This document shows, one piece after another, positions 14,133 to 19,830 of a stretch of DNA of 35,658 nucleotides. Every line of letters starts with the position of its first letter. Positions within the stretch are counted from its first letter, which is position 1. Both the position numbers and the translations under genes were made by a program. Source of the stretch: Candidatus Latescibacterota bacterium (GTDB lineage Bacteria; Latescibacterota; Latescibacteria; Latescibacterales; Latescibacteraceae); NCBI GenBank assembly GCA_016927495.1, contig JAFGMP010000014.1:1-35658 (forward strand). Reading direction: 5' to 3'. The notes beneath the pieces are model-generated. The model was not told where the DNA came from, did not search any database, and worked only from the letters and a program-made list of their open reading frames with translations.

Positions 14133-15092
14133 ATGTATTCAAAAGAATTTTTAACAAATTTGTATAGGCAACTTTTTACTATTCGTATTTTTGAATCCCG
14201 ATGTATACAGCTTTATCGAAAAGGATTGATCCGCGGTTATTTTCATCCCTATCTCGGTGAAGAGGCCATTGCAGTTGGAGTATGTGCCGCACTTAAAAAA
14301 AATGACTATATAACAAGCACACACCGTGGTCACGGCCATTGTATTGCACGAGGTGCAGATATCAACCGAATGGTCGCCGAGCTTCTTGGGAAAAAAACCG
14401 GTTATTGTCGGGGGCTCGGGGGCTCCATGCACATTGCAGATCATTCCGGTGGAAATATAGGGGCCAACGGAATTGTGGGGGGAGGTATACCTCTCGGAAC
14501 AGGAGCGGCTCTTGGCATCTCGATACGTAACGAAGACAGGGTATCGGTTGTTTTTACCTCAGATGGGGCGACAAATAACGGTGTATTTGGGGAATCGCTC
14601 AATCTTGCGGCAATCTGGAACCTTCCATTGCTCATAGTAGTGGAAAACAATCAGTATGCAGTCTCGACCCCGATCGATAAATCGACCCGTGAACCCGACA
14701 TATATAAGCGGTGTATAGGCTATTGCGTCGACAGCTCTGTTGTGGACGGTAACGATGTACTCGAAGTTTATGAGCAGGCACAAAAAGCTGTTGAAAAATG
14801 CCGCAGCGGTAAAGGGCCGATCCTGATCGAGGCAAAAACATACCGTCACGGAGGGCATCATGTTAACGATCCGGGACATTATATGCCGAAAGAACAACTG
14901 GAGTATTATAAATCCAAAGATCCGGTCGTTAAGGGACGATCCCTTTTATTGGAATCAGGCGCTGTAAGTGAGAAAGAAATTGTCAGTATCGAAGAAACTG
15001 TAAAACGTGAATTTGAAGAGGCTGTTGATTTTGCTCAGGAAAGCCCTGAAATGACAGTAGATGAATTCAGGGCAATAGGGGAGGTCTATTAA
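14133..15092 (+). CDS. 2-oxoacid/acetoin dehydrogenase E1 component, alpha subunit
   Basis: The 319-residue protein is a thiamine-diphosphate-dependent E1-alpha of normal length. It shows YFHPYLGEEAIAVG near the N-terminus, the R-G-H-G-H entry loop (STHRGHGHCIARG), LGGSMHIAD, and the TPP/Mg motif SDGATNNGVFGESLN ... NNQYAVSTP (143-180). The usual GDG is SDG here. The later loop reads YRHGGHHVNDPGHY; GHHxxDP is typical of acetoin-dehydrogenase-like E1-alpha, while pyruvate enzymes often have GHS. With the beta subunit it decarboxylates a 2-oxoacid or cleaves acetoin and transfers the acyl group to E2 lipoamide. AGGAG lies eight bases upstream. The stop overlaps the beta-subunit start by one base. 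Confidence 0.93.
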   Translation: MYSKEFLTNLYRQLFTIRIFESRCIQLYRKGLIRGYFHPYLGEEAIAVGVCAALKKNDYITSTHRGHGHCIARGADINRMVAELLGKKTGYCRGLGGSMHIADHSGGNIGANGIVGGGIPLGTGAALGISIRNEDRVSVVFTSDGATNNGVFGESLNLAAIWNLPLLIVVENNQYAVSTPIDKSTREPDIYKRCIGYCVDSSVVDGNDVLEVYEQAQKAVEKCRSGKGPILIEAKTYRHGGHHVNDPGHYMPKEQLEYYKSKDPVVKGRSLLLESGAVSEKEIVSIEETVKREFEEAVDFAQESPEMTVDEFRAIGEVY

Positions 15093-16096
15093 TGAATCAG
15101 GCAGTAACCGGAAAAAATCAACAGAAGAGAAATATAATGTACCGCGAGGCTCTCAATGAGGCTTTACGGGAGGAAATGCGCCGTGATCCATCTGTTTTTG
15201 TTATGGGTGTTGGCATCGCCGAACGCGGAGGGTCATACAAAGTAACCGCAGGTTTGCTTGAAGAATTCGGCGGAAAAAGAGTCATCGATACACCGATTGC
15301 AGAGGCAAGTTTCACCGGTTTGGGTGTGGGTGCCGCTATTACGGGTATGCGGCCGGTTGTGGAAATCCTTTTTATTGATTTCACTTTACTCACCCTGGAT
15401 CAAGTCATAAATCAGGCCGCAAAGTATAAGTTCATGACTGGGGATACCCGTTCGGTTCCCCTGGTACTCAGAACACAGGGAGGTGTCGGCAACGGCCTTG
15501 CCGCCCAGCATTCCCAAAGCCTTGAAGCACTATTCTATCATATACCCGGTCTGAAACTTGTTATGCCCTCGACTCCGTATGATGCCAAAGGGCTTCTCAA
15601 AAGCGCCATACGCTGCGATGATCCTGTAATTTTCATTGAGCATAAACTCCTCTATATGAACGAGGGTGAAGTTCCTGAGGATGACTATTGTATCGAGTTA
15701 GGGAAAGGGGATATCAAACGAAGCGGTAAAGACGTTACGCTTATCGCCTGGTCGAACATGGTTCCACGGTCACTCTCGGCAGCCCAAAAACTTGCTGAGG
15801 ACGGTATCGATGTCGAGGTAATCGATCCGCGTACGCTGGTACCTCTCGATAAAGAGTTGATACTTGAATCGGTACGGAAAACCGAACATGTCGTTATCGT
15901 TCAGGAAGCGGTCAGAAGAGGAGGTATCGCCTCCGATATCGCATCAATAATTCAGGCGGAGGCATTCGATTATCTCGATGCTCCCATCGAAATTATTGCC
16001 GGTATGAATACTCCCATACCTTTCAATCTGATACTGGAAAGCGCCTGTATCCCACAGGAAACCGATATCGTTGAATCGGTAAAAAAATGTATGTGA
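15092..16096 (+). CDS. 2-oxoacid/acetoin dehydrogenase E1 component, beta subunit
   Basis: The 334-residue protein matches E1-beta in length and pattern: REALNEALREEMRRDPSVFV, DTPIAEASFTGLGVGAAITG, MRPVVEILFIDF, QGGVGNGLAAQHSQSLEALF, PGLKLVMPSTPYDAKGLL, and DPVIFIEHKLLY. The C-terminal half has VEVIDPRTLVPLDKE and the conserved VIVQEAVRRGG. It forms the heterotetramer with the alpha subunit encoded directly before it. The ATG shares one base with the alpha stop (TAATG). About 15 extra residues precede the usual first block (MYREALNEAL); an internal Met at residue 16 (position 15137) could also be used. Substrate is not settled between pyruvate, acetoin and branched-chain oxoacids. Confidence 0.93.
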   Translation: MNQAVTGKNQQKRNIMYREALNEALREEMRRDPSVFVMGVGIAERGGSYKVTAGLLEEFGGKRVIDTPIAEASFTGLGVGAAITGMRPVVEILFIDFTLLTLDQVINQAAKYKFMTGDTRSVPLVLRTQGGVGNGLAAQHSQSLEALFYHIPGLKLVMPSTPYDAKGLLKSAIRCDDPVIFIEHKLLYMNEGEVPEDDYCIELGKGDIKRSGKDVTLIAWSNMVPRSLSAAQKLAEDGIDVEVIDPRTLVPLDKELILESVRKTEHVVIVQEAVRRGGIASDIASIIQAEAFDYLDAPIEIIAGMNTPIPFNLILESACIPQETDIVESVKKCM

Positions 16097-16158: not shown

Positions 16159-17379
16159 ATGTCTGAACCGATTATAATGCCGCAGGTTGGGCAGGACATC
16201 GAAAAAGCGGTTATTCTTGAGTGGCGAGTTTGTGAAAACGACCACGTCTCAAAAGGTGACATCCTCTTTGTAGTCGAGTCCGACAAAGCCATATTTGAAA
16301 TCGAAGCCGAAACTTCGGGTGTTATCCTTAAGATTCTCTTCGAGGAAGGTGAGGAAGCAAAAGTATTTGAGCCGGTTGCATATATCGGGGAACCCGGCGA
16401 GTCAATTGAAAAAATGGAAGCATCAGGCGATAGTTCTAAGACAGAACAAAGCATTGTTCACCGACAAACGGTAACGACCGATTTACCACTCGAACTTTCG
16501 AAAACGCATGCATCCCCATCAGCCCGTAGAATTGCCCGTGAATATGACGTCGACCTCTCAGGTATTTCCGGTACAGGACCGAATGGCCGTATCTGTAAAC
16601 GGGATGTTCTGAATATGATAGATCATAGGGACATTCCTTCACCAAGCGAACTGCAAAATACTTCCGCGATGAAAACACATTCGGTACCGGTTACGATTAA
16701 AGAGATATCTAAAGACATCGAGATTCAGTTTTCAAAAATGCGCAAAGCGACTGCGGAACGTTTAACCCTGAGCAAACAGACAATACCACATTTTTACCAC
16801 GCAATCGATGTGGATATGACCGCTACACTCGATCACCGTAAAGAATACAATAAAAGTGCTAATTCAAGAATCTCCGTTAACGACATACTGGTGATGGCTG
16901 TAGCGACCACTCTTAATCGGTTTCCGCTTCTGAATGCACATGTTTTCGATAATAAAATCAGTATTAAAAAAGCGGTAAACATTGGTATTGCGGTGTCAAA
17001 CGATGAAGGCCTTCTGGTTCCGGTAATTCCCGATGTCGCAGCGCTGGGGATCCGGGAAATCAGCCTATTGTCTCACGAGATCATTCAAAATGCCCGACAG
17101 GGAATACTAAAAACCAAATCTCCCGCAAGTTTCACCATAAGCAATATGAGTATGTATCAGATCAATTACTTCATTCCTATAATTAATCCACCGGAATGCG
17201 CCATACTCGGTGTCGGAGGATTGCAAAAACGGGTTATTCCCATCGGTAAAACACAAACCGCTGTTCGCGATATTATAACTCTGACGCTTGCATGCGACCA
17301 CCGTGCCGTCGACGGTGACTATGCAGCACGGTTTCTCAAATCACTGAAAAGAAATATTGAGCATTTTGCATTAAAATGA
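16159..17379 (+). CDS. Dihydrolipoamide acyltransferase (E2) of the same complex
   Basis: The 406-residue protein has one lipoyl domain (residues 1-80, with Lys43 in VESDKAIFEIE as the lipoylated residue). A peripheral-subunit-binding domain follows at 117-152 (SPSARRIAREYDVDLSGISG...GRICKRDVL). The catalytic domain ends with DHRAVDGDYAARFL, where His381 and Asp385 act in acyl transfer. It transfers the acyl group from lipoamide to CoA and forms the core of the complex. It lies 62 bases after the E1-beta gene, preceded by a GAGAGA ribosome site. No E3 (dihydrolipoamide dehydrogenase) gene follows, so a shared E3 elsewhere is likely. Confidence 0.93.
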   Translation: MSEPIIMPQVGQDIEKAVILEWRVCENDHVSKGDILFVVESDKAIFEIEAETSGVILKILFEEGEEAKVFEPVAYIGEPGESIEKMEASGDSSKTEQSIVHRQTVTTDLPLELSKTHASPSARRIAREYDVDLSGISGTGPNGRICKRDVLNMIDHRDIPSPSELQNTSAMKTHSVPVTIKEISKDIEIQFSKMRKATAERLTLSKQTIPHFYHAIDVDMTATLDHRKEYNKSANSRISVNDILVMAVATTLNRFPLLNAHVFDNKISIKKAVNIGIAVSNDEGLLVPVIPDVAALGIREISLLSHEIIQNARQGILKTKSPASFTISNMSMYQINYFIPIINPPECAILGVGGLQKRVIPIGKTQTAVRDIITLTLACDHRAVDGDYAARFLKSLKRNIEHFALK

Positions 17380-17470: not shown

Positions 17471-18304
17471 ATGAAAAAAACGGTTATAGCTTTCGGTGAA
17501 ATTCTATGGGATATATTACCCGACGACACGATACTTGGCGGCGCTCCTTTCAACTTCATCAATCGGGTTAACAGTCTTGGTGAAAGAGGACTTATTGTCA
17601 GCCGTATCGGCCGTGACGAACAGGGACAAAAAGCATACGAAGCTGTCGATTCGCTCGGACTGGAAACCGGATATATTCAATGGGATGAAAAATATCCGAC
17701 CGGAACTGTACAGGTGAGCTTTGAAGAAAACAACAATCCCGATTATGCCATTATTCCCGGTGTGGCGTATGATTACATCGGGATGACGGATTCCCTGACA
17801 GAAATTGCATCAAAAGCTGATTGTATATGCTTCGGGACACTTATCCAGAGATCGGAAAAATCACGCAATACTCTCGAAAAACTCCTCGAAATATCCTCAC
17901 AGAGTATAAAAGTTCTCGACATAAATCTCAGAAAAAAATGTTACAGCAAAGAAACGATTATATTTTCTCTTGACAAAGCGGATGTTCTTAAGTTGAATGA
18001 AGATGAAGCTGTTATACTATCTCATATGCTTGAACTGCACGAGACGGAAATTCCCCGTCTTTGCAACATAATGACAGAAACATGGTCTCTTCGATACTGC
18101 ATCGTTACGTTTGCCGAAAAAGGCGCTTATTTATGTACGGACAGCGGTCAGGCAGTATATGAACCGGGATTTAAAGTACAATATGTCGATTCTGTCGGAT
18201 CAGGTGATGCTTTTACTGCGGGATTTGTTCATGCAATACTCAATGGAGAGACTCCACAGGAAGCCTGCAGACTCGGTAATATTTTGGGAGCACTCGTTGC
18301 ATAA
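17471..18304 (+). CDS. PfkB-family sugar kinase (fructokinase-like), truncated by an in-frame TAA
   Basis: The 277 residues show GEILWDILPDD...LGGAPFNFINRVNSLG near the N-terminus, SRIGRDEQG, the ribokinase-family central sheet, LKLNEDE, and the ATP/catalytic block DSVGSGDAFTAGFVHAIL with the catalytic Asp. It should phosphorylate a sugar such as fructose with ATP in the cytoplasm. The frame stops after NILGALVA, whereas PfkB proteins normally continue with a basic/Gly-rich strand and final helix. The same frame resumes immediately after the stop as KKGGTAAICSDEIDRM. The catalytic residues are intact, but loss of the last strand and helix may destabilise the nucleotide site. A TATACT -10-like box is at 17431-17436. 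Confidence 0.85.
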   Translation: MKKTVIAFGEILWDILPDDTILGGAPFNFINRVNSLGERGLIVSRIGRDEQGQKAYEAVDSLGLETGYIQWDEKYPTGTVQVSFEENNNPDYAIIPGVAYDYIGMTDSLTEIASKADCICFGTLIQRSEKSRNTLEKLLEISSQSIKVLDINLRKKCYSKETIIFSLDKADVLKLNEDEAVILSHMLELHETEIPRLCNIMTETWSLRYCIVTFAEKGAYLCTDSGQAVYEPGFKVQYVDSVGSGDAFTAGFVHAILNGETPQEACRLGNILGALVA

Positions 18305-18415
18305 AAAAAAGGTGGTACTGCTGCTATTTGTTCGGATGAAATTGACCGGATGAAAAATTCGAATACTGCTCGCACCATATACCCTGAATTTGAAAAATAT
18401 ATAACCGGCGATTGA
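18302..18415 (+). pseudogene. Read-through tail of the PfkB kinase after the nonsense codon
   Basis: After TAA at 18302-18304 the same frame stays open for 36 codons to a TGA at 18413-18415. The tail begins KKGGTAAICSDEIDRM and ends YPEFEKYITGD. This is what a normal PfkB C-terminus looks like after GALVA. A full-length product would have about 314 residues, a usual fructokinase size. A single-base change (for example TCA to TAA) would explain it. TAA ends other genes here, so the code is standard. Confidence 0.75.
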
Positions 18416-18483
18416 AACATAAAAACTCATTTTTATAATGATAAATCGAAAAAGTCTGTCTTTAATATCATCAGGAGGACTCA

Positions 18484-19830
18484 ATGGAAAATACAAAAAC
18501 AAAACACGGCAGACGGTCATTTCTTGGTGCAATCGGTGCAACCGCTGTTGCGGCAACATCAGCGCCGCTGCTGAAGACCAAAAGCACTCAGGCAAAAACC
18601 ACCGGAGGAAAGCTCAAAGTGGCTCTTGTCGGTACAGGTATTCGCGGCAGCACCATGTGGGGAAAGACAGTTAAGGATGATTACGGCGATGTGGTCGAAT
18701 TTGTCGGCCTGTGCGATATCAATACCAAACGTATGGCATTTTCCAAACAGTATATCGGGGTATCATGCCCGACATTTACCGATTTTGATCAAATGATACG
18801 TGAAACCAAACCGGATTCTGTAATCGTAACCACAGTAGACTGTTTTCATGCCAAATATGCCTGTCGGGCGATGGAACTCGGATGTGATGTTATATGTGAA
18901 AAACCTCTGGCTACTGACGAAAAATTGTGCCAGGATATTATCGACACCGAAAAACGTACCGGGAAAAAAGTGACCGTAACATTCAACGCCCGTTACGCCG
19001 CTCCTGCGAAAAGAGTTAAGGAAATCCTAATGACCGGTGAAATCGGCCAGATTACATCGGTAGATTTTAACTGGTATCTCAATACCGACCACGGCGCCTC
19101 ATATTTCCGTAGATGGCATGCTTTCAAGCAGTTCAGCGGCTCACTCCTTGTCCACAAAGCCACCCATCATTTCGATATGATGAACTGGTGGCTCGAAGCC
19201 GAACCGGTAGAGGTGAATGCCTACGGTAAACTCAGGCATTACGGATTTAACAGCGAATTCCGCGGAGAACGCTGCATGTCCTGCCCCCATAAAAAATCCT
19301 GTAAATACTTCTGGGATATTACGCAAAACGACTTTCTCATGAATCTGTATGTTAAGGCTGAGTCAGAGGATGGATATATCCGCGACGCCTGCCTTTTCAG
19401 AAAGAAAATCAATATTTGGGATACCATGGCATTGCAGGTGAGATACCACAACGATGTAATGATGAGTTATTCACTGAATGCCTGCATGCCATATGAAGGT
19501 TACAAAGCATCATTTAACGGTACGAAAGGCCGTCTCGACTGCCGGACATACGCCAGTCAGCCATGGCAAGTCGACAGTGAAGCCGAAATCCGTATCACCG
19601 GGCATTTCGGAAAGTCCAGAACCATGTCCGTGCAGACTGAAACATCCGGGGGGCACGGCGGTGCCGACCCGCAACTTCAGGACAGAATTTTCAGAGGGCC
19701 ATTTCCCGATCCGCTCGGTTTTGCAGCAGGAACAAGGGATGGGGCGCTTTCTATCCTGATCGGTATTGCCGCACGGAGAAGCATTGAACAGCAACGACCC
19801 ATTATGATTGAAGAGTTGGTTAAAATTTGA
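18484..19830 (+). CDS. Tat-exported Gfo/Idh/MocA-family oxidoreductase
   Basis: The 448-residue protein opens with a twin-arginine signal (HGRRSFLGAIGA, Arg10-Arg11, then a hydrophobic Ala-rich stretch). A Rossmann NAD(P) fold follows with VALVGTGIRGSTMWG (about 47-60), FVGLCDIN, and the family lysine in CEKPLAT (Lys140). The C-terminal domain has LLVHKATHHFDMMNWW. A cysteine group (Cys264, Cys267, Cys273 in RCMSCPHKKSC) is an extra metal-binding candidate. Tat export fits a protein that folds with its cofactor, as in glucose-fructose oxidoreductase. An AGGAGGA ribosome site is present. It begins a run of secreted-protein genes on the same strand. Sugar or glycoside substrate is inferred. Confidence 0.92.
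   Translation: MENTKTKHGRRSFLGAIGATAVAATSAPLLKTKSTQAKTTGGKLKVALVGTGIRGSTMWGKTVKDDYGDVVEFVGLCDINTKRMAFSKQYIGVSCPTFTDFDQMIRETKPDSVIVTTVDCFHAKYACRAMELGCDVICEKPLATDEKLCQDIIDTEKRTGKKVTVTFNARYAAPAKRVKEILMTGEIGQITSVDFNWYLNTDHGASYFRRWHAFKQFSGSLLVHKATHHFDMMNWWLEAEPVEVNAYGKLRHYGFNSEFRGERCMSCPHKKSCKYFWDITQNDFLMNLYVKAESEDGYIRDACLFRKKINIWDTMALQVRYHNDVMMSYSLNACMPYEGYKASFNGTKGRLDCRTYASQPWQVDSEAEIRITGHFGKSRTMSVQTETSGGHGGADPQLQDRIFRGPFPDPLGFAAGTRDGALSILIGIAARRSIEQQRPIMIEELVKI

Follow-up and report, generated by a model that had tools for sequence, protein, structure and literature searches.

A PfkB-family sugar kinase frame in the window (the whole stretch of 35,658 nucleotides analysed here) is cut by an in-frame TAA placed 37 codons ahead of the normal end of the kinase, and the explanation that we favor, with a probability of about 60%, is that an acquired accessory kinase was hit by a recent nonsense substitution, either fixed or polymorphic in the population. 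Most likely the cause is nothing new in mechanism, but a commonplace mutation that damages the gene, or else an error in the sequence. In the proposed course of events, an accessory PfkB sugar kinase would have been acquired horizontally and a nonsense substitution would then have created the TAA, so that translation, assuming the base to be real, would halt at residue 277, directly behind the last core helix. A recent date for this event would follow from the tail, which is still gene-like and free of further lesions, and the report that in-frame stops in bacteria are common but short-lived (Belinky et al., PMC7918605) fits such a timing.

The kinase frame and its in-frame stop

The window is a complete contig (C173) of a draft genome with 91% completeness, whose 521 contigs add up to 6.09 Mb. 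The shortened kinase frame lies on the forward strand (17471..18304), as established by translation, Pfam, and alignment, and its translation of 277 aa closes in GALVA, after which a TAA (18302..18304) takes the place of residue 278, one residue past the last core helix in the sequence and the models. The same frame then continues for 36 codons (18305-18412), which translate as KKGGTAAICSDEIDRMKNSNTARTIYPEFEKYITGD, and closes with a TGA at 18413-18415. Translation thus confirms what the preliminary description had read at this position, namely a stop directly after GALVA followed by 36 codons in the same frame, and it was also right that the frame is unbroken and the catalytic Asp kept: the kinase reads DSVGSGD, a form of the D-[TS]-x-G-x-G-D motif in which the GSGD holds the catalytic D246. 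The N-terminal GG (G23 and G24), G243, G245, and D246 are invariant in a 47-row alignment, and the anion-hole motif is retained in the 277-aa form. The PF00294 score is 109.2 bits without the tail and 115.2 bits with it (curated cut-off of 25.8), and many sugar-kinase families matched the kinase in an NCBIfam search, every one of them far under its cut-off. The C-terminal loop and helices of the family are encoded in frame but lie 3' of the TAA, and so fall outside the translated product.

A homopolymer of eight As (A8, 18303..18310, forward strand) overlaps the stop and takes in its last two bases. A bypass by frameshift or homopolymer slippage, already dismissed in the preliminary description, can be rejected, since the T of the stop precedes the run and the gain or loss of an A leaves TAA as long as at least two As remain. 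The suggestion made there that a single base change produced the stop is plausible without being proven: the codons of Ser, Gln, Glu, and Lys may differ from TAA by one substitution, whereas Thr, the commonest residue at this column (59/107 homologue rows), is two substitutions away.

Because the stop adjoins an A-run, an assembly error is the main rival to a real mutation. The organism would then have an intact gene, and the TAA would have entered the draft metagenome-assembled genome as a mistake of consensus calling or assembly, an account that we consider possible, though well short of probable. Several features speak for it, since the genome is a draft in 521 pieces, the A bases of the stop run on into A8, the tail is free of decay, and false internal stops introduced by assembly are well documented (PMC11017572); in Illumina data, moreover, the first base after a homopolymer is often called as the base of the run (PMC8002175), although the platform used here may differ. 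Against it stands the scarcity of such lesions in the genome as far as sampled. In about 0.65 Mb of sequence sampled, comprising 464 ORFs of at least 120 codons, one other ORF is followed in frame by a free, gene-like stretch that is no weaker than the present one and may be a gene of its own. The window kinase is the only one of the 12 PfkB matches of the genome with an internal stop, and no internal stops were present in PF01408 or PF00005 among the matches listed.

A genome-wide abundance of stops was therefore not seen in the part sampled. Two further sets of candidates were discarded: a TAG in a MocA match on contig C233 sits upstream of the start of that gene, and 25 pairs of same-frame neighbors, never more than 10 codons apart, have the look of normal adjoining genes. 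On another contig of the same genome (C170, 2217-3998), an enolase-superfamily (MR_MLE_C) ORF ends in TAA and is followed by 118 in-frame gene-like codons, in which no Pfam match was found; this may be an interrupted gene or a separate small gene.

The sequence after the stop is the kinase C-terminus

The 36 codons had been described as the normal PfkB C-terminus, and both the alignment of homologues and a gene-like codon usage agree with that reading. A total of 108 homologues were aligned, 28 from genomes of the phylum and 80 from the genome collection, with one record present twice; the stop column was counted over 107 rows (106 distinct genes), one fragment without a residue there being left out. 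The residues found in this column are T (59), S (25), Q (11), G (8), E (2), K (1), and A (1), and a stop codon occurs in none of the 107 rows (106 distinct intact homologues). The homologues extend at least 11 residues past the column, with the sole exception of one that is cut by the end of its contig, and the columns of G281 and P284 are nearly invariant among them. Their tails carry an x-G-G/A motif that the window tail retains as KKGGT, a tail start identical to that of the Aquiflexum and Cognataquiflexum genes. With a codon-usage model trained on the 464 ORFs of the window's own genome, the tail scores 0.147 per codon, close in kind to the kinase (0.171) and distinct from the upstream intergenic sequence (-0.108), while its other two frames score -0.009 and -0.198. 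An open stretch of 36 codons is expected by chance at the local composition in about 5% of cases, so that length alone is weak evidence; the family match and the frame-specific codon usage, however, are convincing, and the tail is the true C-terminus of the kinase. Relatives were also compared for the same stop with unrelated sequence behind it; none has the stop and the continuation is homologous, which leaves the original observation standing.

An open and coding-like tail is also what could be cited in favor of leaky or programmed read-through of the TAA, which would give full-length kinase at a low level, and in-frame stops with purifying selection downstream have been reported as widespread in bacteria (PMC7918605). 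We nevertheless regard this as very improbable. The stop is conserved in no homologue, and TAA is also the codon with which ORFs of this genome most often end in the normal way (218/464). No anticodon reading UAA was found among 40 tRNAs, the last of which, a tRNA-Ser with anticodon CGA, was read by eye, and an alternative code or suppressor tRNA was accordingly rejected. The same applies to a recoding RNA element, for the sequence after the stop has no Rfam match and its predicted structure is not stable, folding no better than shuffled sequences (z of 0.38). Read-through, listed in the preliminary description alongside recent inactivation, a strain polymorphism, and an assembly error, is thus left without a suppressor tRNA, a conserved stop, or a downstream RNA element.

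What the truncation would remove

AlphaFold models of the read-through and 277-residue forms (mean pLDDT of 95.9 and 96.6, respectively) coincide through the last core helix (262-276/277). With the tail present, a further loop and the helices 288-296 and 305-312 follow, and the model stays confident into the tail; the loop at 231-240 falls from a pLDDT of 95 with the tail to 85 without it. The truncated form is also modelled with high confidence, which is no test of stability. In adenosine kinase, which belongs to this superfamily, the counterparts of these two loops enclose K+, and the backbone carbonyls that hold the ion include three from the C-terminal loop, those of Ile346, Arg349, and Gly351 (PMC6086891). 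By motif spacing, these residues would correspond to V276, K279, and G281 of the window kinase, which would place two of the three putative cation-ligating positions behind the stop. For the PsuK of Escherichia coli, residues Met285-Asn308 at the C-terminus, together with another loop, have likewise been found to correspond to the monovalent-ion region (PMC9247573). The 277-aa product is therefore predicted, from models and homology, to keep the core fold and the catalytic Asp and to lose part of the nucleotide/K+ loop together with the C-terminal helices. The loss of these cation-loop positions and helices makes a loss of activity likely, and the enzyme is probably inactive or badly impaired.

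Because the stop coincides with the close of the last core helix, an alternative is that the protein of 277 aa still functions, as a working kinase or as an altered one. The stop takes up the residue that follows helix 262-277, the truncated model is as confident as stated above, and both D246 and the anion-hole motif are retained. Against this, no homologue ends near the stop, those that are not cut have 11 or more residues beyond it, in which the columns of G281 and P284 hardly vary, and the tail is still coding-like, when an old functional truncation would have allowed it to decay. We consider such a variant unlikely, and equally so the broader proposal that the stop is real and tolerated, either as a domain-edge truncation with altered nucleotide/cation dependence or with full-length protein made by low-level read-through.

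Probable origin and dispensability of the kinase

The reading of a recent nonsense mutation in an acquired gene also draws on the distribution of the kinase. It is single-copy in its genome, and no close copy was detected in the same-genus and same-family genomes examined, which have distant PfkB paralogues only; identity above 40% was found in none of 64 genomes of the phylum. An alignment-based scan of the genome collection gave a best match of 44%, an earlier contig scan having given none, and a plasmid search for relatives was negative. In the tree, the window kinase stands apart from the other Latescibacterota kinases, and its sister is a gene from a Bacteroidota assembly (44% identity, support of 100/99). 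Its branch (0.73) is not longer than that of this sister (0.87), which argues against a long decay. Of 41 well conserved columns the kinase deviates at 5, against 0-6 in the homologues, which puts it near the top of their range and is at most a weak hint of lost function or relaxed selection.

Directly upstream of the kinase, the window encodes a complete 2-oxoacid dehydrogenase set recognized by Pfam/NCBIfam, made up of E1 alpha (14133..15092), E1 beta (15092..16096), and E2 (16159..17379), and a Gfo/Idh/MocA oxidoreductase (18484..19830; Pfam) follows downstream, all on the forward strand. The corresponding locus of the same-genus genome (contig C181, 8708-11197, minus strand) keeps E1 alpha and E1 beta, followed by a gap of about 0.5 kb and the MocA gene (78% identical), all within a single contig; both E2 and the kinase are absent from it, and a search of that genome gave no full-length E2 match. 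In the same-family genome, E2 is followed by a different PfkB gene, recognized by eye from its translation. No relic of the window kinase was detected in either genome. Since the gene is absent from these relatives and has a Bacteroidota sister, it looks like a horizontally acquired and dispensable accessory gene, although the same pattern may also have arisen if the relatives lost the gene or if one of the two contigs was mis-binned.

Some other features of these loci deserve mention. A sigma-70-like promoter match (11/12, consensus match only) overlaps the end of the tail in front of the MocA gene (18412..18439, forward strand), and suggests that this gene may have a transcript of its own, separate from that of the kinase. 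The Gfo/Idh/MocA family is greatly expanded: the PF01408 search gave 73 matches for the window's genome and 68 for that of the same genus. In the same-family genome, an apparent broken HAD-phosphatase fragment, identified by eye, precedes the PfkB-type kinase (contig C326, 1-1300, minus strand).

Comparison with known systems

Single nonsense codons are common in accessory metabolic genes, whether as real, short-lived mutations or as assembly artefacts. Gene callers will report a kinase of 277 aa here, for which annotations should carry a warning of probable truncation. Should the stop prove real and the enzyme be active, PfkB kinases would be shown to work without their C-terminal cation loop.

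The best solved relative is the fructokinase of Bacteroides thetaiotaomicron (PDB 2qhp; sequence E of 8e-52, fold E of 1.4e-30, 34% identity), a likeness of sequence and fold; its C-terminus is intact, whereas that of the window kinase is cut. The interruption itself resembles two documented patterns. In the single-stop pseudogenes and transient in-frame stop polymorphisms of bacteria (Belinky et al. 2021, PMC7918605), one in-frame stop likewise cuts a gene that is otherwise intact, and carbohydrate metabolism, to which a sugar kinase belongs, is among the categories with many cases; unlike in those cases, no orthologue with the same stop was found for the window kinase. The spurious stops of assemblies (Cooley and Wright 2024, PMC11017572) share with it a draft assembly, a frame intact on both sides, and a stop adjoining a homopolymer, but the sampled part of the window's genome, unlike that pattern, carries no excess of stops.
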